Below are positions 2,389-12,598 of a stretch of DNA of 40,916 nt, in pieces. The first letter of the stretch is position 1, and every line of letters starts with the position of its first letter. Made by a program: the position numbers and the translations under genes. Source of the DNA: Methylophaga sp. (lineage in GTDB: Bacteria > Pseudomonadota > Gammaproteobacteria > Nitrosococcales > Methylophagaceae); NCBI GenBank assembly GCA_024636315.1, contig JAGXHJ010000057.1, positions 1-40,916 of the forward strand, given 5' to 3'. Below the pieces are notes generated by a model. It was given only the letters and a program-made list of their open reading frames with translations, had not been told where the DNA came from and made no database searches.

Positions 2389-3783
2389 TTAACTATCTTT
2401 TAACTTCCTTGTTAGGGTGTTCCTACCCCAGCCTAATAACTTTGCTGCATCTTGTCGCTTACCAATAGTTTTCTCTAAAGCCACTTCCATTAATAGATGC
2501 TCAACCAAAGGCACTATATCGGCTAAAGCACCCTCCTGACCAGTTAATGCTTTCGTCGCCGCCCATTGTTTGAATAATATCTGCCAATTTCCCGTGCCTA
2601 CTTGGTCGACCGATACTTCATTCATTAACTCACTAGGTAAGTCATCGACCTGTACTACCTTGGCAGGAGACATAACGGTCAACCAGCGACAGGTATTCTC
2701 TAACTGTCTTACATTACCTGGCCATGCTAACTGACTCAGATAGCTTTCAACCTCTGGAGATAATGTTTTAGCAGAAACGGCTAATTCAGAAGCGGCTTTA
2801 CTCAAAAAGTAATTTGCAAGTGCAGGCACATCTTCTCTTCGCTCTCTTAAAGCGGGAATTTGTATCCGAATTACATTCAAACGATGAAATAAATCTTCCC
2901 TAAACTCACCTTGCTCAACTCGCTGTTCAAGATTCTGATGAGTAGCAGCGACAATTCGCACATCTGCCCTAACAACACTATGACCCCCTACTCGGAAAAA
3001 CTCACCATCTGATAACACTCTTAAAAGCCGAGTTTGTAAGTCTATCGGCATATCGCCAATTTCATCTAAAAATAATGTGCCGCCATCAGCTTGTTCAAAT
3101 CTACCTTTGCGTAGCGCATGAGCACCAGTAAACGCGCCTTTTTCATGACCAAATAATTCCGACTCCATTAATTCTTTCGGTATGGCAGCCATATTCAGGG
3201 CTATAAATGGCGCATTTCTTCGCGGACTATGTTTATGTAATGCATTGGCGACAAGTTCCTTCCCAGTTCCCGACTCACCATTAATTAAGACGTTAATATT
3301 AGAACGCGCCAAACGACCAATAGATCTGAAAACCTCTTGCATCGCAGGTGCTTCACCAATAATTTCAGTTGCTAGAATAATCGGTTTTTCAGTAGTCTGT
3401 TGCAGCTGTTCGTGGTGATGAACAATCGCTCGTTGCACCAAGTCAACGGCTTCATCAACATCGAATGGTTTTGGTAAATACTCAAATGCACCGCCCTCAT
3501 AGACCGATACAGCACTATCTAGATCTGAATAAGCCGTCATAATAATCACGGGTAATTCAGGAATGTTTTGTTTAATATCATCTAGTAATTGCAAACCATC
3601 CATACCCGGCATGCGTATATCACTGACTAATACATCTGGCGTACCATTTTTCAATTCATTCAGTACATCAGTAGCATTTTCAAACACTCGGACATTAATT
3701 GCCACTGACTCTAAAGCTTTTTGTAACACCCAGCGTATCGAGCGGTCATCATCCACCACCCACACATTTGATTTTTTACTCAC
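2389..3783 (-). CDS. ntrC: Nitrogen regulation response regulator NtrC (NR-I), sigma-54 activator
   Basis: A 464-residue enhancer-binding protein. The receiver domain (residues 1-120) has the acidic pocket VVDDD and the phosphoacceptor Asp in [14 protein letters not shown]. The AAA+ domain carries Walker A GESGTGKE, the sigma-54 contact loop GAFTGA and Walker B-like [12 protein letters not shown]. The C-terminal Fis-type helix-turn-helix reads [18 protein letters not shown]. It starts with GTG, overlapping the ntrB stop (GTGAGTAA), with GGAG seven bases upstream, so it is translationally coupled to ntrB. NtrC-P activates sigma-54 promoters under nitrogen limitation; candidate targets in this window are at 5019-5035 and 10064-10098. 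Confidence 0.97.
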
Positions 3784-4831
3784 TTGCTCGCTCCAGGGGG
3801 AAAATAACAGAAAATACTGTACGGCCAGGCTGACTGTTGCATAAAATCATTCCATTGTTACGTTGCACCAAGTTCTGCACTAGATATAGTCCTAAGCCAG
3901 TACCTTCTGCTCGTCCTGTTACTAGCGGGAAAAACATACTTTCTTGTAACAATTTTGGAATACCTGGTCCATCGTCTTCAATATCAATGCATACGCCTAA
4001 ACGATAGCGTTTTTGATCAATACTGATATTACGTACCGCTCTTGTTCTCAGCACAATTCTGCCTGTGCCATGCAATGCCTGTACTGCGTTTTGTACAATA
4101 TTGAGAAACACCTGAACTAATTGGTCAAAATCAACAAATAAATCTGGAATACTAGGATCGTAATCACCTTTAAAGACAAGTCGATAATCAACCTCTGCAA
4201 AAACAAGTTGCCTCACTCGTTGCAGCACTTCATGGATATTGACGGAAGCTTGTTCTGTCAGTTGGTGTGATCCCAACATTTTAGTCATTAAGTTTTGTAG
4301 ACGATCCGCCTCACTAATAATAATCGCGGTATATTCTTTTAATTCTGCTGAAACTAGCTGACGCTCTAATAGTTGCGCCGCTCCTCTTAAACCGCCCAGG
4401 GGATTTTTTATCTCATGAGCTAGGCCGCGTAAGACTTGCTGCTGTGTATGTAGGCTCTCATCGCGACTAATTCGCTGTTGAAAATCTAACTGCGCCAACT
4501 CTAACAATATAAACGGGTGGTCAGCGCCCTCTGTTTCTACCAACTTAATCGCACAATCAACAACTATATCGCCAGCACTAGGAATATATAATTTAACTTC
4601 ACGTTCAATTAATTGCTGGCCAGTTTTTTGAACACGTTCCAAACTATTTAGTAAGTCACCCTCACCTAATAGCAAGGCATGAATAGGTATATCTTCAGCC
4701 TGTCGTTGGCTCATACCAAACATTATTTCTGCTGCTGAATTGAGTTTATTGACACGTAGAGAATGATCCATCACCACGATTGCAGTGGTGAGATTTTCAA
4801 TAATATCTTGGTAAGATAATAAAGTTGTCAT
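3776..4831 (-). CDS. ntrB: Nitrogen regulation sensor kinase/phosphatase NtrB (NR-II)
   Basis: A 351-residue cytoplasmic histidine kinase with no membrane segments. A PAS domain fills roughly residues 5-115. The H box is LAHEIKNPLGGLRGAAQLLERQ with the phosphorylated His, followed by the N box (QVFLNIVQNAVQAL) and G boxes (IEDDGPGIP, GTGLGLYLVQN). NtrB phosphorylates or dephosphorylates NtrC depending on PII protein and glutamine status. It overlaps ntrC by eight bases. The leader holds a candidate sigma-54 promoter and an NtrC site, suggesting autoregulation separate from glnA. Confidence 0.96.
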   Translation of the reverse strand: MTTLLSYQDIIENLTTAIVVMDHSLRVNKLNSAAEIMFGMSQRQAEDIPIHALLLGEGDLLNSLERVQKTGQQLIEREVKLYIPSAGDIVVDCAIKLVETEGADHPFILLELAQLDFQQRISRDESLHTQQQVLRGLAHEIKNPLGGLRGAAQLLERQLVSAELKEYTAIIISEADRLQNLMTKMLGSHQLTEQASVNIHEVLQRVRQLVFAEVDYRLVFKGDYDPSIPDLFVDFDQLVQVFLNIVQNAVQALHGTGRIVLRTRAVRNISIDQKRYRLGVCIDIEDDGPGIPKLLQESMFFPLVTGRAEGTGLGLYLVQNLVQRNNGMILCNSQPGRTVFSVIFPLERASE

Positions 4832-4871: not shown

Positions 4872-4888
4872 AGCAAGTAATGATCCAA
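4872..4888 (-). promoter_or_regulatory. Candidate sigma-54 promoter of ntrBC
   Basis: Minus-strand TTGGATCATTACTTGCT has the invariant GG and GC ten bases apart and a good TTGC -12 element, though the CAC after the GG is not conserved. A start about twelve bases downstream leaves a leader of roughly 30 bases to the ntrB ATG. The NtrC-like palindrome at 5019-5035 lies about 140 bp upstream of the -24 element, a usual enhancer distance. Identified by eye against YTGGCACGRNNNTTGCW. Confidence 0.6.
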
Positions 4889-5018: not shown

Positions 5019-5035
5019 CGCACCATAATGGTGCG
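5019..5035. promoter_or_regulatory. NtrC-binding site upstream of ntrB
   Basis: CGCACCATAATGGTGCG is palindromic except at its central base and contains GCACCA-N3-TGGTGC, essentially the high-affinity NtrC half-sites known from the E. coli glnA enhancer. It sits in the DUF4124-ntrB intergenic region upstream of the candidate sigma-54 promoter. No T-run follows, so it does not look like a terminator. Confidence 0.75.
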
Positions 5036-5686: not shown

Positions 5687-7096
5687 TTAAACGCTGTAGT
5701 ACATATCAAATTCAGCAGGATGAGTTTCCATACGAAGACGGGTTACTTCGCCCATTTTCAATTCAATATAAGCATTGATCATGTCATCAGTGAATACACC
5801 ACCTTCCGTTAAGAACGCGCGATCTTCATTCAATGCATCTAATGCTTGATCTAAGCCATAACAAACTTGTGGGATTTGTGCCGCTTCTTCAGCTGGTAAG
5901 TCATACAAGTCTTTATCCATCGCATCGCCGGGGTGGATCTTGTTTTTAATACCATCAAGGCCTGCCATTAATAAGGCAGCAAATGACAAGTATGGATTAG
6001 CCGTTGAATCAGGGAATCGAACTTCGATACGACGACCTTTTGGATTATTAACAAAAGGAATACGAATGGATGCGCTACGGTTACGTGCAGAATATGCCAA
6101 CATGATAGGTGCTTCAAAACCAGGTACTAAACGTTTGTAGCTGTTTGTACTTGCGTTAGTAAATGCATTTAATGCTTTAGCATGTTTGATTACACCGCCG
6201 ATGTAAAATAGTGCAGTTTCTGATAAACCACCATATTTATTACCCGAAAACAAATTCTCACCGCCTTTAAATAAAGACATGTGAACGTGCATACCACTAC
6301 CGTTATCACCCACTAAAGGCTTAGGCATAAAGGTCGCCGTTTTACCGTAGGCATGTGACACATTATGTATAACATATTTGAGCTGTTGAACTTCATCAGC
6401 TTTTTTAACCAAGGTGTTAAATTTAACACCAATTTCACATTGACCAGCAGTCGCTACTTCATGGTGATGTACTTCAGTTATTTGACCCATTTCTTCAAGT
6501 GTTAGACACATCGCACTACGAATATCTTGTAATGAATCAACAGGAGGCACAGGGAAATAACCACCTTTAACGCCTGGACGATGACCTTTATTGCCATCAG
6601 GATATACTTTTTCAGTATTCCAAGAAGATTCATCAGAATCAATTTTATAGAATGAACCTGAAATATCACTGCCCCAGCGAATATCATCAAAAATGAAAAA
6701 TTCATTTTCTGGGCCAAAATAAGCAGCATCAGCAAGACCAGTTGATTGCATATACGCTTCAGCGCGATGAGCAACACTACGAGGATCACGTTCATAACCT
6801 TGCATAGTGGCTGGTTCGATAATATCGCAACTGATAATTAGTGTCGTATCGTCCATAAAAGGATCCAGCACGGCAGTTGTTGGATCTGGCATCAAAATCA
6901 TATCTGATTCATTAATACCTTTCCAGCCAGCCACTGATGAACCATCAAACATATTACCTTCGCTGAAGGTATCTTCATCAATACTGTGTGCAGGGAAAGT
7001 AACATGCTGTTCTTTACCGCGTGTATCTGTAAAACGGAAATCCACAAACAGAACTTCCTCATCTTTAATCATTTGAAGCACATTTTCGACTGACAT
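5687..7096 (-). CDS. glnA: Glutamine synthetase type I (GSI-beta)
   Basis: 469 residues, the same length as E. coli GlnA. It condenses ammonium and glutamate to glutamine with ATP. Visible signatures include [16 protein letters not shown], the catalytic ENEFFIFDD, the ATP-site block [16 protein letters not shown] and NRSASIRIP. The segment [10 protein letters not shown] carries the Tyr that is adenylylated in GSI-beta enzymes, implying control by GlnE. The start at 7096 has GGAGAA at good spacing. The roughly 150-base upstream region (7097-7246) showed no convincing NtrC site or GG-N10-GC sigma-54 promoter on reading; the best sigma-70 -10 candidate is weak. A second, unrelated-class glutamine synthetase is encoded at 10374-12548. 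Confidence 0.98.
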
Positions 7097-7246: not shown

Positions 7247-7474
7247 TTAACCACCAACCTGTACGGTAACGGTGATTTCATCACCATTATCATGATGTCC
7301 CAATATCTTGTGACCATTGATCCTTGCCCATGCAGGAATATCACTTAATACGCCTGGGTCGGTGCAAATAACGTTTAATATATCACCAACGGCTAATTCT
7401 TTAACCTTATTTTGCGTTTTGATAACTGGCATAGGACACAGCATACGTCTGGCATCTAATTCGTGCTCACTCAT
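7247..7474 (-). CDS. TusA-family sulfur carrier protein
   Basis: A 75-residue protein with the TusA/SirA fold signature: ELDARRMLCPMPVIKTQNKVKEL, where Cys in the CPMP motif would carry persulfide sulfur, followed by GDILNVICTDPG. E. coli TusA passes sulfur toward MnmA for 2-thiouridine formation; related members serve other sulfur relays. The ATG at 7474 overlaps the stop of the upstream gene (ATGA), with GAGGA nine bases before it, so it is translationally coupled to the PP-loop thiolase-like gene. That pairing suggests it is the dedicated donor for that enzyme. Assignment to TusA itself rather than a paralogue is not certain. Confidence 0.9.
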   Translation of the reverse strand: MSEHELDARRMLCPMPVIKTQNKVKELAVGDILNVICTDPGVLSDIPAWARINGHKILGHHDNGDEITVTVQVGG

Positions 7475-8523
7475 ACATGCCAATCCTCATTTACTTGATC
7501 AACAGACAGCGGTTTAATATTCATTATTTTAATATCTTCACCAGGAACGAAGATATGCACTTCAACCTGCTCAGCATCACGTCCTTGTCCATAACGTGCA
7601 ACAACACCAGCGGCTAATTCAAAATCTTCAGGCTTAATATCACCATCGACCATAGTCAAAGGACCATTATGGCTGACAACTTGAATCGTCACGAATTGTT
7701 TACGGTAACCTTCCAAATATTTACTTTCACCGGCGTCACGCGCAATGATCAGTTTAAACTCTGGTTTAGGACGAATGTGACGGCCGACTTTTAGTAGCAT
7801 AATGTCATCCATCTCATATTCTCGAGTACCGCGAGCATCCCAGAGATCAACCAATTTATCAGAATAATTTTTATCTGTTAGGAAGCAACAACCGCCCGCT
7901 GGAGAGGCATAATCTGTAAAACCATATTTGGCAGCTAATGCCATCTGAGGTTTACGAGTTCGGCCGCTAAAATCATACATTTTTTCGCGATCTATCCAAC
8001 CTTCCAATTCCGGCTTGGTAGCGGGTAAATTTTTCGCACATAAAGGTCGTACTAAAATATCTTCAGCACCTGATTCTTTAGCAACAATCGGCATTGTTTG
8101 TTTGCGTTGTGACATGGGGCGTTGACCGATTACTTCACCAGTAATAATAAAGTCAAAGCCATCTTTACGATTTTCTTGTATCCATTGCACGGCTTTACCC
8201 ACCATAAATATTTTGCAATCTAAACAAGGATTCATATTGGCGCCATAGCCATGTTTCGGATTCAACAAAACATCTTTGTATTCTTCAATAACATCAACGA
8301 TATGTAGCTTAATACCTAATTGTTCAGCTGCCCATAGTGCATTATTGCGTTTTTGTTTATCTTTATCATGATTACGAATTGCATGGGTATGCCCTTCAAC
8401 ACAAAATCCTGTGTAAAAATTAATACCTTCAACTTCGATGCCTTGCTCTTGCATTACACGCACGGCTAAAAGTGAGTCTAAACCACCTGAAATTAATGCA
8501 ATTGCCTTATGTTTTGTTGTCAC
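7471..8523 (-). CDS. PP-loop ATPase, MnmA/ThiI-like tRNA thiolation protein with NFACT-R-like C-terminus
   Basis: 350 residues. The N-terminal domain has the PP-loop ATP pyrophosphatase motif [12 protein letters not shown] (about residues 11-22), as in MnmA and ThiI, which adenylate uridine before sulfur transfer. Cysteines lie in NPCLDCKIF and [11 protein letters not shown], candidate sulfur-handling residues; the arrangement is not that of canonical MnmA. The C-terminal part ([19 protein letters not shown]) resembles the NFACT-R RNA-binding domain that is known to be fused to MnmA/ThiI-like proteins. The start is GTG at 8523, overlapping the tldD stop (GTGA), with AGGTGGAA upstream. It overlaps a TusA-like gene downstream. 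The substrate is unknown; thiolation of an RNA base is the best inference. Confidence 0.85.
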
Positions 8524-9962
8524 GCTGTTCCACCTACTGTTAAACCATCTATTTTTAATGTCGGCTGACCAACACCTACGGGTACACTTTGACCTTCTTT
8601 GCCACAATTACCAACACCACTATCTAACTCTAAATCGTTAGCAACCATACTAATTCTGCTCATTACTTCTGGTCCGTTGCCAATCAAGGTTGCTCCTTTC
8701 ACGGGTCGCGTAATTTTGCCGTTTTCAATCAGATACACTTCACTGGTCGAAAATACAAATTTCCCAGATGTAATATCAACTTGTCCACCACCAAAATTAA
8801 CCGCGTAAATACCTTTTTTGACTGAGGCAATAACCTCTTCAGGCTCGTGTTCACCAGGCAACATATAAGTATTTGTCATACGAGGCATAGGTAAATGAGC
8901 ATAAGATTCACGTCGACCGTTGCCTGTGCTCTGGCTACCCATCAAACGTGCATTGTGTTTATCTTGCATATAACCGGTTAACTTACCTTTCTCAATGAGG
9001 GTCGTTTTTTCTGTTGGCACACCTTCATCATCAATCGACAATGAACCTCGGCGATCTTGCAAGGTGCCATCATCCACAACCGTGCATAATGGTGAAGCCA
9101 CCATCTCGCCCATTTTGCCAGAAAAGGCTGAGCTACCACGACGGTTAAAGTCACCCTCTAAACCATGTCCAACGGCTTCATGCAACAAGACACCTGGCCA
9201 ACCAGAAGCAAGCACTACAGTCATATTACCTGCTGGAGCATCAACGGCTTCCAAATTCACTAAGGCTTGGCGTACCGCTTCTTTAGCATAATTGATGGGT
9301 AAATCGTTATCTTGAAAATAACGATAATCTAAACGTCGACCGCCACCAGCACTGCCTCGTTCACGTCGCCCCTTGGACTCCACAATGACCGATACGTTCA
9401 TCCTTATTAAAGGTCGAATATCAGCGGCAAATGTCCCATCACTGGCGGCAACCAGTACAGTGTCTAAACCACCCGCTAGACTTACACTAACTTGGGTAAC
9501 GCGCGGATCAGCGGCTCGCGCTGCGGCATCAGCTTGGTGTAATAAAGCGAGTTTTTCCTCAACAGTCAACACTGCTAAAGGATCTGTTTCGGCATAAAAT
9601 TTAGGTGCAACTGTACGTTTCCATGCTTGTACACTTCCATCAGCACCCTGACGTGAAATAGCCCGTGCAGCTTTCGCCGCATCCTGCAATGCCGGTAAAA
9701 TCAAATCATCGGAATACGCAAAACCAGTTTTTTCGCCGCTACAGGCTCTAACACCAACGCCTTGTTCAATATGGTAGCCGCCATCTTTGATAATGCCATC
9801 TTCTAACAACCAATTTTCTTGGCGTGATTGCTGGAAATAAAGATCTGCATAATCAACGCCACGGCCCATAGTTAAGGCGAGTGTCTGTTCTAAATTAGCT
9901 TCAACCAATCCAGCAGGTAATAATAATTGTTGGGTTACTTGTTCGATTATAGAATATGTCAT
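8520..9962 (-). CDS. tldD: Metalloprotease TldD
   Basis: 480 residues, matching the 481 of E. coli TldD. TldD forms a heterodimeric zinc peptidase with TldE (PmbA) that acts on unfolded peptides such as the microcin B17 leader and CcdA. The metal-binding [11 protein letters not shown] motif (HExxxH) is intact, and the C-terminal [30 protein letters not shown] region carries the family Cys and GG motifs. The ATG at 9962 is preferred to a TTG three bases upstream. No tldE is visible in the window. In enteric relatives tldD follows yhdP directly; here a plus-strand glutamine synthetase gene intervenes. Confidence 0.97.
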
Positions 9963-10057
9963 CAATTGATTGCTTTACGTTACAAGGTTATAGATCATAC
10001 CAGATCTAATACCTAGCGACTTTATTGGGACTTCATTAGCCATTGTTTATTCCGGCA

Positions 10058-10104
10058 AGTGAAGCACTAAAAAGGTGCGTTACGCACCTTTTTAGTGCTT
10101 CACT
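10058..10104. promoter_or_regulatory. 47-bp palindrome containing two mirrored NtrC-binding sites
   Basis: Two perfect 22-base arms around a TTA centre. Each arm contains a 15-base NtrC-like site: GCACTAAAAAGGTGC (10064-10078) and its mirror GCACCTTTTTAGTGC (10084-10098). Both fit GCACYA-N3-TGGTGC with one mismatch and resemble the E. coli glnA enhancer sites. Their centres are 20 bp apart, about two helical turns, which would allow cooperative binding of two NtrC dimers. They lie 75 and 95 bp upstream of the -24 element at 10166. The core could also fold as a terminator hairpin (AAAAA-stem-TTTTT), but no gene ends near it: both neighbours read away. Confidence 0.72.
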
Positions 10105-10163
10105 CTAAGACTTATTGTTCATAACCCTCGGCTAAATTAGCCAAGTTAAACATTCTAAAATTG

Positions 10164-10180
10164 ATGGTCTGGTTATTGCT
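10164..10180 (+). promoter_or_regulatory. Sigma-54 promoter of the type III glutamine synthetase gene
   Basis: ATGGTCTGGTTATTGCT has GG (10166-10167) and GC (10178-10179) separated by exactly ten bases, a perfect TTGCT -12 element and TGG at -24. The predicted start is near 10191, leaving an untranslated leader of about 180 bases. The paired NtrC-like sites would fall near -120 and -100. Read by eye; no scoring matrix was run. Confidence 0.72.
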
Positions 10181-10239
10181 TGTTCTCTCGGTGAAGCGTC
10201 TAGTTGTGATTTAACTCGCCCAGATTATGAATACCTGAG

Positions 10240-10271: not shown

Positions 10272-10373
10272 AACATAAATTCAAGCGACTATAAGTCGAT
10301 GACTATTACTGAAGTAATCAACACTGAAAATTCCAATTTATTTAATACTATTAATGTAGTCGAGGAAAAAACA

Positions 10374-12548
10374 ATGAGTGGAAATGAATCCCGCATTCAA
10401 GCAATTCACCAAATAACAAACCGTGAAACAATGTCCGTTAAAACACCTAAACCTTTAGATAAAATCTGGGCAACAGATGTATTTAACTTGGCTAAAATGG
10501 AAGAATCATTATCTAAAACAGCCTTCAAAGCCATGAAAAACACGGTAAAAACTGGTGCGCCACTTGATGCTGCAACGGCCGAAGTAGTTGCCGCCGCAAT
10601 GAAAGAATGGGCCCTATCTAAAGGTGTCAAATTCTTTTCACATATTTTCTATCCGATGACTAACATCACAGCTGAAAAACACGATGGTTTTATCATTAGT
10701 GATTCAGAGGGTAAGGCGATTACTGAATTTTCTAGTAGCCTTTTAATTAAAGGCGAACCGGATGGTTCTTCATTCCCTAACGGTAGTATTCGTATGACCA
10801 ACGCTGCCCGTGGTTATACTGCGTGGGATCCAACCAGCCCTGTCTACATCATGCATACCGATAACGGCTCAACTTTAATGATTCCAAGTGTTTTCATGTC
10901 ATGGACAGGTGAAGCGCTCGATAAAAAAATTCCATTACTACGCTCTATTGATGCAATGAATAAGGCAGGCAACAAAGTCTTATCACTCATGGGCGAAACT
11001 GAAATCGCACCATTAAATTCAAGTTGTGGTGCTGAGCAAGAATATTTCCTTGTCGATAGCAACTTTGCTAACAGCCGTCCTGATTTATTGCTAGCTGGTC
11101 GTACTTTATTTGGTGCCTCACCAGCAAAAGGTCAACAGTTTGATGACCATTATTTTGGTACTATCCCTGCCCGCGTTCAAGTATTCATGCAAGACTATGA
11201 AGATCAATTATATCGCCTAGGTATTCCAGCTAAAACTCACCACAATGAAGTTGCACCAGGTCAGTTTGAAATTGCACCCTATTTTGAAGCGGCTAATATA
11301 GCAGCAGATCATCAACAATTAATGATGACACTGATGAGAGCGACCGCTAAGAAACATGGCTTCCTTTGTTTGCTTCATGAAAAACCATTTGCCGGAATCA
11401 ATGGTTCAGGTAAGCACGTGAACTGGTCGGTAGGTAATGCAACTCAAGGTAACCTACTTGATCCAGGTAAAACGCCACATGATAACTTAAACTTCTTATT
11501 ATTCTGTGGTGCAGTTATTCGTGGTGTTCATAAATACGGACCATTATTACGTGCCGTTATTGCGTCAGCTGCTAATGACCATCGCTTAGGTGCTAATGAA
11601 GCTCCTCCAGCGATTCTATCGGTCTATCTTGGTGACCAACTTGAAAAAGTTTTCCAAGATATCAAAGATGGCAAAATTACTAGCTCACAATCTGGTGGCA
11701 CCATGGATCTTGGTTTGTCACAAATTCTTAATTTTGAACGTGATCCTGGTGATCGTAATCGCACATCACCATTCGCATTCACAGGTAACCGATTTGAGTT
11801 CCGCGCAGTAGGTTCATCACAATCTGTTTCTGGTCCATTGGTGGCGATGAATACTATGCTAGCCGATTCACTTAGTTGGATCGCTGACAAACTAGAAGCT
11901 GAATTGAAAAAAGGCACTAAACAACCAGATGCTGTTGTAGCGGTACTGAAAGAGTTAATGGACCTTCATGGCAATGTCATCTTTGGTGGTGATGGTTATT
12001 CATCAGAGTGGCATGAGAAAGCAGTTTCTGAACGTGGTTTGCAAAATATACCTACAACGGCTGATGCCTTACCAGCATTGCGTGAAGACTATATCAAAAC
12101 ATTGTTTGAGAGCACGGGTGTTTTATCACCTATCGAGCTTGCAAGTCGTTATGAAGTCTATGCAGAGCAATATATTTTATCGATTGAAGTAGAAGCCAAA
12201 CTCGTTATCGACATGGCTAAAACATTAATTTATCCTGCGGCAATTGGTTACCTTGCTGAACTATCAATAACCAATTCAAGTATGGCTGAAATGGGTATTG
12301 AGCTTGATAACTCGGTCGCCAAAAAAGTCGCAGAAGAATCAAATGCAATGATAGCTGCGATAGCTAAACTTAGCGAAGCGATAGAAAAACATGACTTTGC
12401 AACGATGGAAGAGCACATGCAATTCTGTGCCAACGTTATCCTTATTTTGATGAGCAAAGTTCGCTTGCATGCGGATATTCTAGAAACAGAAGTAGCTGAC
12501 GAATTATGGCCGCTACCGAAATACCAAGAGATGCTGTTTATCAAGTAA
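10374..12548 (+). CDS. glnN: Glutamine synthetase type III
   Basis: 724 residues, the size of GSIII enzymes of cyanobacteria and Bacteroides and much larger than GlnA. Family blocks seen: GEPDGSSFPNGSIR, CGAEQEYFLVD, KTHHNEVAPGQFEIAP, HEKPFAGINGSGKHVNWS and NRTSPFAFTGNRFEFRAVGSSQSVSGP. The start at 10374 (MSGNESR) is favoured by GAGGA eight bases upstream and by length; the ORF extends in frame to 10299. GSIII makes glutamine from ammonium and is often a nitrogen-starvation or backup enzyme that lacks the adenylylation loop of GlnA. Upstream NtrC-like sites and a sigma-54 promoter predict induction by nitrogen limitation. It is on the opposite strand to its neighbours, between yhdP and tldD, and is a candidate inserted gene. 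Confidence 0.95.
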   Translation: MSGNESRIQAIHQITNRETMSVKTPKPLDKIWATDVFNLAKMEESLSKTAFKAMKNTVKTGAPLDAATAEVVAAAMKEWALSKGVKFFSHIFYPMTNITAEKHDGFIISDSEGKAITEFSSSLLIKGEPDGSSFPNGSIRMTNAARGYTAWDPTSPVYIMHTDNGSTLMIPSVFMSWTGEALDKKIPLLRSIDAMNKAGNKVLSLMGETEIAPLNSSCGAEQEYFLVDSNFANSRPDLLLAGRTLFGASPAKGQQFDDHYFGTIPARVQVFMQDYEDQLYRLGIPAKTHHNEVAPGQFEIAPYFEAANIAADHQQLMMTLMRATAKKHGFLCLLHEKPFAGINGSGKHVNWSVGNATQGNLLDPGKTPHDNLNFLLFCGAVIRGVHKYGPLLRAVIASAANDHRLGANEAPPAILSVYLGDQLEKVFQDIKDGKITSSQSGGTMDLGLSQILNFERDPGDRNRTSPFAFTGNRFEFRAVGSSQSVSGPLVAMNTMLADSLSWIADKLEAELKKGTKQPDAVVAVLKELMDLHGNVIFGGDGYSSEWHEKAVSERGLQNIPTTADALPALREDYIKTLFESTGVLSPIELASRYEVYAEQYILSIEVEAKLVIDMAKTLIYPAAIGYLAELSITNSSMAEMGIELDNSVAKKVAEESNAMIAAIAKLSEAIEKHDFATMEEHMQFCANVILILMSKVRLHADILETEVADELWPLPKYQEMLFIK

Positions 12549-12565
12549 TCCTGACAAACAATATC

Positions 12566-12598
12566 AAAAAAGGCCGCTTAGTTAAGCGGCCTTTTTTT
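12566..12598. terminator. Bidirectional rho-independent terminator between glnN and yhdP
   Basis: GGCCGCTTA-GT-TAAGCGGCC with six A residues before and seven T residues after, 18 bases past the glnN stop. The A- and T-runs make it usable from both sides, though the yhdP gene ends about 180 bp away. The stretch between the terminator and the yhdP stop at 12783 contains no recognisable gene. Confidence 0.93.

Follow-up and report, generated by a model that had tools for sequence, protein, structure and literature searches.

A perfect palindrome upstream of glnN in a Methylophaga genome is a probable two-site NtrC enhancer, in a clade that has lost the NtrC/sigma-54 promoter at glnA

The window studied here (the whole stretch of 40,916 nucleotides that we analyzed, contig 83 of a Methylophaga assembly, G000, which comprises 113 contigs and 2.36 Mb and is 88% complete) contains a perfect 47-bp palindrome in the gap between tldD and the divergent gene glnN, which encodes a type III glutamine synthetase (GSIII). 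Judging from sequence comparisons with its relatives, this palindrome is very probably a two-site NtrC enhancer of glnN, in a clade where glnA has lost its own promoter and glnN would serve as the nitrogen-starvation glutamine synthetase, with the mirror symmetry arising as a by-product. A more specific account, in which the glnA promoter decayed in place while glnN holds the enhancer, so that the two genes exchanged roles under NtrC, and in which paired enhancers have repeatedly been made palindromic by template switching, strikes us as evenly balanced between right and wrong.

Gene organization of the window

On its minus strand the window carries nusA, rimP, ntrC, ntrB, a DUF4124 gene, glnA, a tusA-like gene, a ThiI-like gene, and tldD, from which glnN diverges. 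The genes and elements of immediate concern are as follows:

2389..3783, minus strand: ntrC (TIGR01818, 739 bits against a cut-off of 559)
3776..4831, minus strand: ntrB (glnL) (PRK11073, 325 bits against a cut-off of 240)
4872..4887, minus strand: sigma-54-type element upstream of ntrB, TGGATCATTACTTGCT (pattern search)
5020..5034, minus strand: NtrC-type site upstream of ntrB (pattern search)
5687..7096, minus strand: glnA, type I glutamine synthetase (NCBIfam PRK09469/GlnA), with no NtrC/sigma-54 promoter found upstream
7250..7474, minus strand: gene directly upstream of glnA, located by gene-order comparison, which from its translated sequence we take to be tusA-like
8520..9965, minus strand: tldD, divergent neighbor of glnN (PRK10735)
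10374..12548, plus strand: glnN, type III glutamine synthetase (Pfam GSIII_N, Gln-synt_C, and Gln-synt_C-ter)

The open reading frame listing had begun glnN at 10299. The likeliest start is instead an ATG at 10374, given the AGGA just upstream and the matches to relatives that begin there (exactly at 10374, residue 26, in 21 of 80 GSIII relatives). The encoded protein has the N-terminal, catalytic, and C-terminal domains of GSIII (PF12437, PF00120, and PF18318), and NtrB, NtrC, and RpoN, the regulators of an NtrC-activated sigma-54 promoter, are all encoded in G000. An Rfam scan of the window returned only a tRNA. Just 3' of glnN, before a convergent YhdP gene, lies a terminator-like hairpin with 15-nt arms and A and T runs (12566-12597).

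Two NtrC-type sites and a sigma-54-type element precede glnN

The palindrome, which had been noticed in the sequence of the window, is indeed perfect over 47 bp, and its arms each contain one NtrC-type site:

10058..10104, no strand: perfect palindrome, 47 bp (arms 10058-10080 and 10082-10104, 23 nt each, around a 1-nt center)
10064..10078, plus strand: NtrC-type site 1, GCACTAAAAAGGTGC, center 10071, aligned to sites in both nearest relatives
10084..10098, plus strand: NtrC-type site 2, GCACCTTTTTAGTGC, center 10091, aligned to sites in both nearest relatives
10165..10180, plus strand: sigma-54-type -24/-12 element, TGGTCTGGTTATTGCT, 9 of 12 consensus positions, transcription start expected near 10191

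Both predicted sites have exact GCAC-N7-GTGC cores, and their centers are 20 bp apart, as had been claimed. The NtrC consensus is GCACYA-N3-TRGTGC, and against it each arm has the single mismatch that the original prediction gave; if TGG is demanded on the plus strand, as in that prediction, site 2 has two. Within the window, GCAC-N7-GTGC occurs three times against 0.57 expected, a count reached by 1 of 100 shuffles. The symmetry extends beyond what two NtrC sites alone would produce, since 15 further base pairs match (7 within the sites, 2 in the spacer, and 6 outside). The 5-bp spacer of close NtrC pairs reads GTNAC at several promoters from different families (10079-10083 in the window, and in the genomes G334, G346, and G017), giving the shared core GTGCGTNACGCAC.

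The promoter that had been proposed 75-95 bp downstream is where it was said to be, with the GG-N10-GC frame present downstream of the sites: the GG of TGGTCTGGTTATTGCT is 95 bp from the first site center and 75 bp from the second, and the element lies 101 and 81 bp from the sites. Taken alone, however, the element is not distinguishable from chance (the sigma-54 consensus TGGCAC-N5-TTGCW with at most two mismatches has 30 matches in the window against 27 expected, and TGGTCTGGTTATTGCT, with three mismatches, falls outside those 30), and its -24 part is weak, with TCT in place of CAC. A simple scan between tldD and glnN found no sigma-70 promoter, and no GG-N10-GC that might mark a divergent sigma-54 promoter towards tldD occurs on the minus strand in 9940-10110.

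The site pair and promoter are conserved upstream of glnN, whereas the palindrome is not

We assembled 85 glnN upstream regions (the window, four family members, and 80 of 89 GSIII relatives with flanks). In 51 of the 85, the combination of an NtrC site and a sigma-54 element downstream of it scores at least 19 of 24, compared with 0.4% of 3,400 shuffles (these shuffles, and those used for glnA below, move two-base blocks and are not strictly dinucleotide-preserving); the spacing from site to element was 99-164 bp in 42 of the 51. Together with the presence of NtrB, NtrC, and RpoN, this distribution favors the predicted NtrC/sigma-54 control of glnN. The 34 regions scoring below 19 comprise four from Actinomycetota, two from cyanobacteria, two from Lentisphaerota, four truncated at a contig end, and 22 from proteobacteria that span 600 bases; five of these 22 are of Methylophaga type, and the 22 also include two of the three Zhongshania regions. 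At a loose threshold, paired sites were 19-21 bp apart in 15 of the 85 regions and 30-32 bp apart in five.

The two nearest relatives are locus L011 (genome G023, GSIII 97% identical) and locus L012 (genome G010, GSIII 90% identical). The alignment that the original prediction had called for reveals the GCAC-N7-GTGC pair, with its 20-bp spacing, at the same place in both, with one core mismatch in each (GCGC in L011 and GAGC in L012). In neither are the arms mirror images (10 of 15 positions match), so the fully mirror-symmetric form that had been emphasized, although perfect in the window, is absent even from its nearest relative. In the comparison with L011, the palindrome is identical at 28/47 positions, the downstream flanks at 40/51 and 89/105, and the promoter (10160-10185) at 25/26; for L012 the palindrome stands at 27/47, no worse than its flanks (28/53 and 57/105), and the promoter at 22/26. 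These figures indicate that the two sites and the promoter have been kept and the palindrome has not. The L011 glnN leader also contains a run of ATTACT repeats, a simple-sequence expansion not seen in the window.

Across the 57 genomes of the family, the 20-bp pair pattern with at most two mismatches occurs in seven (four at glnN, one at glnA in G017, and the remaining two in G046 and G050), and the reversed control in none of 57; the 47-bp palindrome itself occurs only in G000. When 63 genomes from the order were searched for exact close pairs, only the window came up, the relatives' pairs carrying mismatches. The gene itself is accessory: 17 of the 57 family genomes have it near full-length, within the genus the figure is 6 of 29, and a seventh genus member has a fragment. 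At five loci from Psychromonas and Thiothrix (L055, L060, L063, L064, and L078) the match to GSIII extends over some 3.1 kb rather than 2.2 kb, which points to either inserted sequence or an additional partial match.

Loss of the NtrC/sigma-54 promoter of glnA in the window's clade

glnA is a textbook core target of NtrC. Among the 50 of 57 family genomes with a GlnA match at E 1e-100, NtrC and sigma-54 elements upstream of glnA score at least 18 in 46 (and at least 19 in 45), compared with 23 and 4 of 2,000 shuffles at the two thresholds. The four misses are G003, a 1.1-Mb genome, and the three members of the window's clade (G000, G010, and G023), which group together with support of 100/99 in a GlnA tree of 30 genomes and whose GlnA proteins are 97-100% identical. 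Site pairs are present at glnA in 45 of the 50, spaced 28-31 bp in 42 of the 45 and 29-31 bp in 41; the five regions lacking a pair are those of G000, G010, G023, G002, and G003. Likewise, the sigma-54 box before glnA is present in 14 of 18 aligned gaps and absent in G000, G010, G023, and G003. Within 1,500 bp upstream of glnA, our pattern search, which does not prove absence of regulation, yielded for the clade a single poor NtrC-like match (in G000, inside the tusA-like gene) and, in all three genomes, a sigma-54-like string 640-715 bp upstream, inside the thiI-like gene and with no adjoining NtrC site.

The surroundings of glnA have not changed correspondingly. At 29 of the 30 loci compared, glnA follows a thiI-like and a tusA-like gene, those of the window's clade included (the exception is G042), and the NtrC site and sigma-54 element of ntrB are kept in all 29 loci that reach ntrB. 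We therefore conclude that NtrC control left glnA and not its neighbors. Nor would the presence of glnN alone release glnA, since 13 other glnN carriers (three genus mates, G014, G020, and G031, and ten further family genomes) keep NtrC elements at glnA; the apparent exchange is peculiar to the window's clade. Two further features of these loci may be recorded. In 31 of the 50 family genomes (loci L127-L176; loose pattern with one mismatch), a short TTTGCAC-N-GTGCAGT inverted repeat stands downstream of the sigma-54 element and ahead of the glnA start codon; the repeat also occurs in G003, which lacks the NtrC/sigma-54 elements at glnA, but was not found in the window's clade; it could be a leader hairpin. 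In addition, G056 (genus g4, 97% complete) has a GSIII (L107) but yields no hit to GlnA at E 1e-100, so it may rely wholly or chiefly on GSIII as its glutamine synthetase.

Loss of its own NtrC/sigma-54 promoter by glnA in this clade would make glnN the nitrogen-starvation glutamine synthetase, and a loss confined to this clade, of a promoter found in 46 of 50 genomes, lends weight to the predicted division of labor, with GSIII as the starvation enzyme and GlnA outside NtrC control. We consider it unlikely, though the most serious of the objections, that NtrC activates glnN while GlnA stays the main starvation enzyme through post-translational control or another activator, with no exchange of roles. 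GlnA is still present and 97-100% identical within the clade, as such continued service would have it, and enterobacterial GlnA is, in the parts of PMC6316151 that we draw on, also controlled by adenylylation; this reading nevertheless leaves aside the clade-specific, in-place loss of a promoter that nearly all other family members kept.

Under the role exchange that we favor, nitrogen shortage would lead NtrB to phosphorylate NtrC, whose dimers would bind both sites, which at a separation of about two helical turns face the same side of the DNA. The bound dimers would build an active oligomer that reaches, through DNA looping, sigma-54 RNA polymerase at 10165-10180, so that glnN would be transcribed from about 10191 with a leader of some 180 nt to the ATG at 10374. 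GlnA of the clade would then be expressed from an NtrC-independent promoter. The handover from glnA may have become possible once glnN stood under NtrC, although the order of these events is our conjecture.

Comparison with known nitrogen control systems

At Escherichia coli glnAp2, an NtrC enhancer with sites about 32 bp apart serves a sigma-54 promoter. The arrangement upstream of glnN shares with it two upstream NtrC dyads, a GG-N10-GC promoter downstream, and a glutamine synthetase target, and differs in that the target is GSIII, the sites form a perfect mirror, and the spacing is 20 bp. The original prediction had called this the glnAp2 architecture, which is apt for the dyads and the downstream promoter but not for the spacing: in a glnAp2-type pair, about three helical turns separate two strong sites, and the usual spacing at glnA in the family is 29-31 bp (41 of 45 pairs), whereas 20 bp corresponds to two turns. 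The architecture is best described as a variant of the known NtrC/sigma-54 promoter, and the apparent target swap and the apparently repeated formation of palindromes are the points of interest.

As described in PMC5343134, the NtrC regulon of Proteobacteria has a core of ntrB/ntrC, the ammonium transporter, and glnA, with nitrate and nitrite genes as taxon-specific members. The predicted regulon here resembles it in the ntrB/ntrC and ammonium transporter core and in nitrate and nitrite genes as taxon-specific members, and differs in that it includes glnN and lacks glnA; the main text of that paper nowhere contains the string glnN. A GSIII that acts as a second glutamine synthetase is known from cyanobacteria: according to the relevant passages of PMC6316151, Synechocystis glnN is induced without combined nitrogen, under the control of NtcA rather than of NtrC/sigma-54, glnA there is NtcA-controlled too, and Synechococcus WH7803 is an exception. 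NtrC control of proteobacterial glnN did not come up in our searches of an open-access library, where the glnN passages that we examined concern cyanobacteria. A clade in which NtrC control has moved from glnA to GSIII would make the purpose of GSIII in proteobacteria directly testable, with close relatives that have or lack glnN, and have or lack NtrC sites at glnA, as natural controls.

Origin of the mirror symmetry

Exact close pairs of NtrC sites (20-21 bp apart) occur at nine places in eight of 369 gammaproteobacterial genomes, compared with one genome for the reversed control. Five of the nine precede glutamine synthetase genes (glnN of the window, and glnA in G334, G346, G415, and G062, in each case with a sigma-54-type element between pair and gene); the other four show none. 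Wide pairs are more numerous, with 75 in 68 genomes (control, two genomes). Perfect mirroring was found in 3 of the 9 close pairs (window, G334, and G415) against 0.33 expected by re-pairing, or in 2 of 8 when the window, which prompted the question, is left out, and in 3 of the 75 wide pairs against 0.17 expected, one of these three being built from two sites, each close to palindromic by itself. Among other glnN regions, L022 is perfectly mirrored and L024 and L102 are nearly so (13/15), while none of the 45 family glnA pairs is perfect (at most 13/15).

Two adjacent dyad sites are a quasi-palindrome by construction. According to PMC8794818, a single template-switching event can turn an imperfect inverted repeat into a perfect one, and such an event could perfect a site pair with neither site harmed. 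Because mirrored pairs recur elsewhere, the perfection in the window looks like repeated homogenization of the arms of an intrinsic quasi-palindrome, and the symmetry is probably a by-product of this process, on the small numbers at hand. The process described in PMC8794818 differs in that it is here proposed for paired transcription-factor sites, with no ancestral sequence that displays the event directly: the arms are 13/23 and 15/23 identical to L011 and 14/23 and 13/23 identical to L012, so that neither is clearly ancestral. Such a mutational route, suggested by the recurrence of mirrored enhancers, would keep neighboring regulatory sites alike.

Selection on the symmetry itself, for example through better assembly of the NtrC oligomer on a symmetric pair, seems to us improbable. 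It would account for the excess of perfect mirrors among close pairs, and mirroring is commoner in close than in wide pairs (Fisher p 0.015); yet wide pairs, with a different geometry, show an excess as well, most pairs, including those of the closest relatives, lack the symmetry, and the counts are low.

Less probable still is that selection favored the structure of the palindrome, as hairpin, cruciform, or transcription terminator, and not a pair of protein sites. Its perfect 23-nt arms make it the longest perfect inverted repeat in the window (with a gap of up to 12; the next, with 15-nt arms, is the hairpin after glnN), and as single-stranded DNA it folds into one hairpin with an energy below that of all 200 shuffles (z -10.7). 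The nearest relatives, however, lose the symmetry and keep two NtrC-type sites, neither arm is followed by a T run, and a terminator scan omits the palindrome. Moreover, with divergent genes on either side and the -24/-12 element downstream of it, the palindrome would not be part of a glnN transcript from TGGTCTGGTTATTGCT; its position, the missing T run, and the terminator scan rule out a terminator or leader hairpin. We give almost no weight to a dispersed repeat or mobile element with chance GCAC/GTGC motifs, although long perfect inverted repeats are typical of such elements, since a genome search found the palindrome once in the 2.36-Mb G000 assembly (its sole other match being the palindrome against itself), ruling out a dispersed repeat, and its sites align with the paired sites of relatives that lack the 47 bp.

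Other candidate NtrC targets in G000

The genome scan that had been suggested was run as a pattern search. GCACY-N5-RGTGC occurs at eight places in the whole assembly (reversed control, two): twice in the palindrome, and at ntrB, nitrite reductase, an NMT1-like binding protein, an MFS transporter, and two places with no obvious link to nitrogen (threonyl-tRNA synthetase and an EAL protein/phospholipase D pair). Sigma-54-type elements lie near the NtrC-type sites at nitrite reductase, the NMT1-type protein (beside an ABC permease), the MFS transporter, and ntrBC, and both amtB loci have an NtrC-type site with one core mismatch together with a sigma-54-type element. Judged by these targets, the pattern plausibly outlines an NtrC regulon. 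Upstream of one glnK-amtB locus (L192, contig 103) lies a gene that, from the translations, we take to encode an outer-membrane, TorF-like protein; it is itself preceded by a one-mismatch NtrC-type site and a sigma-54-type element.
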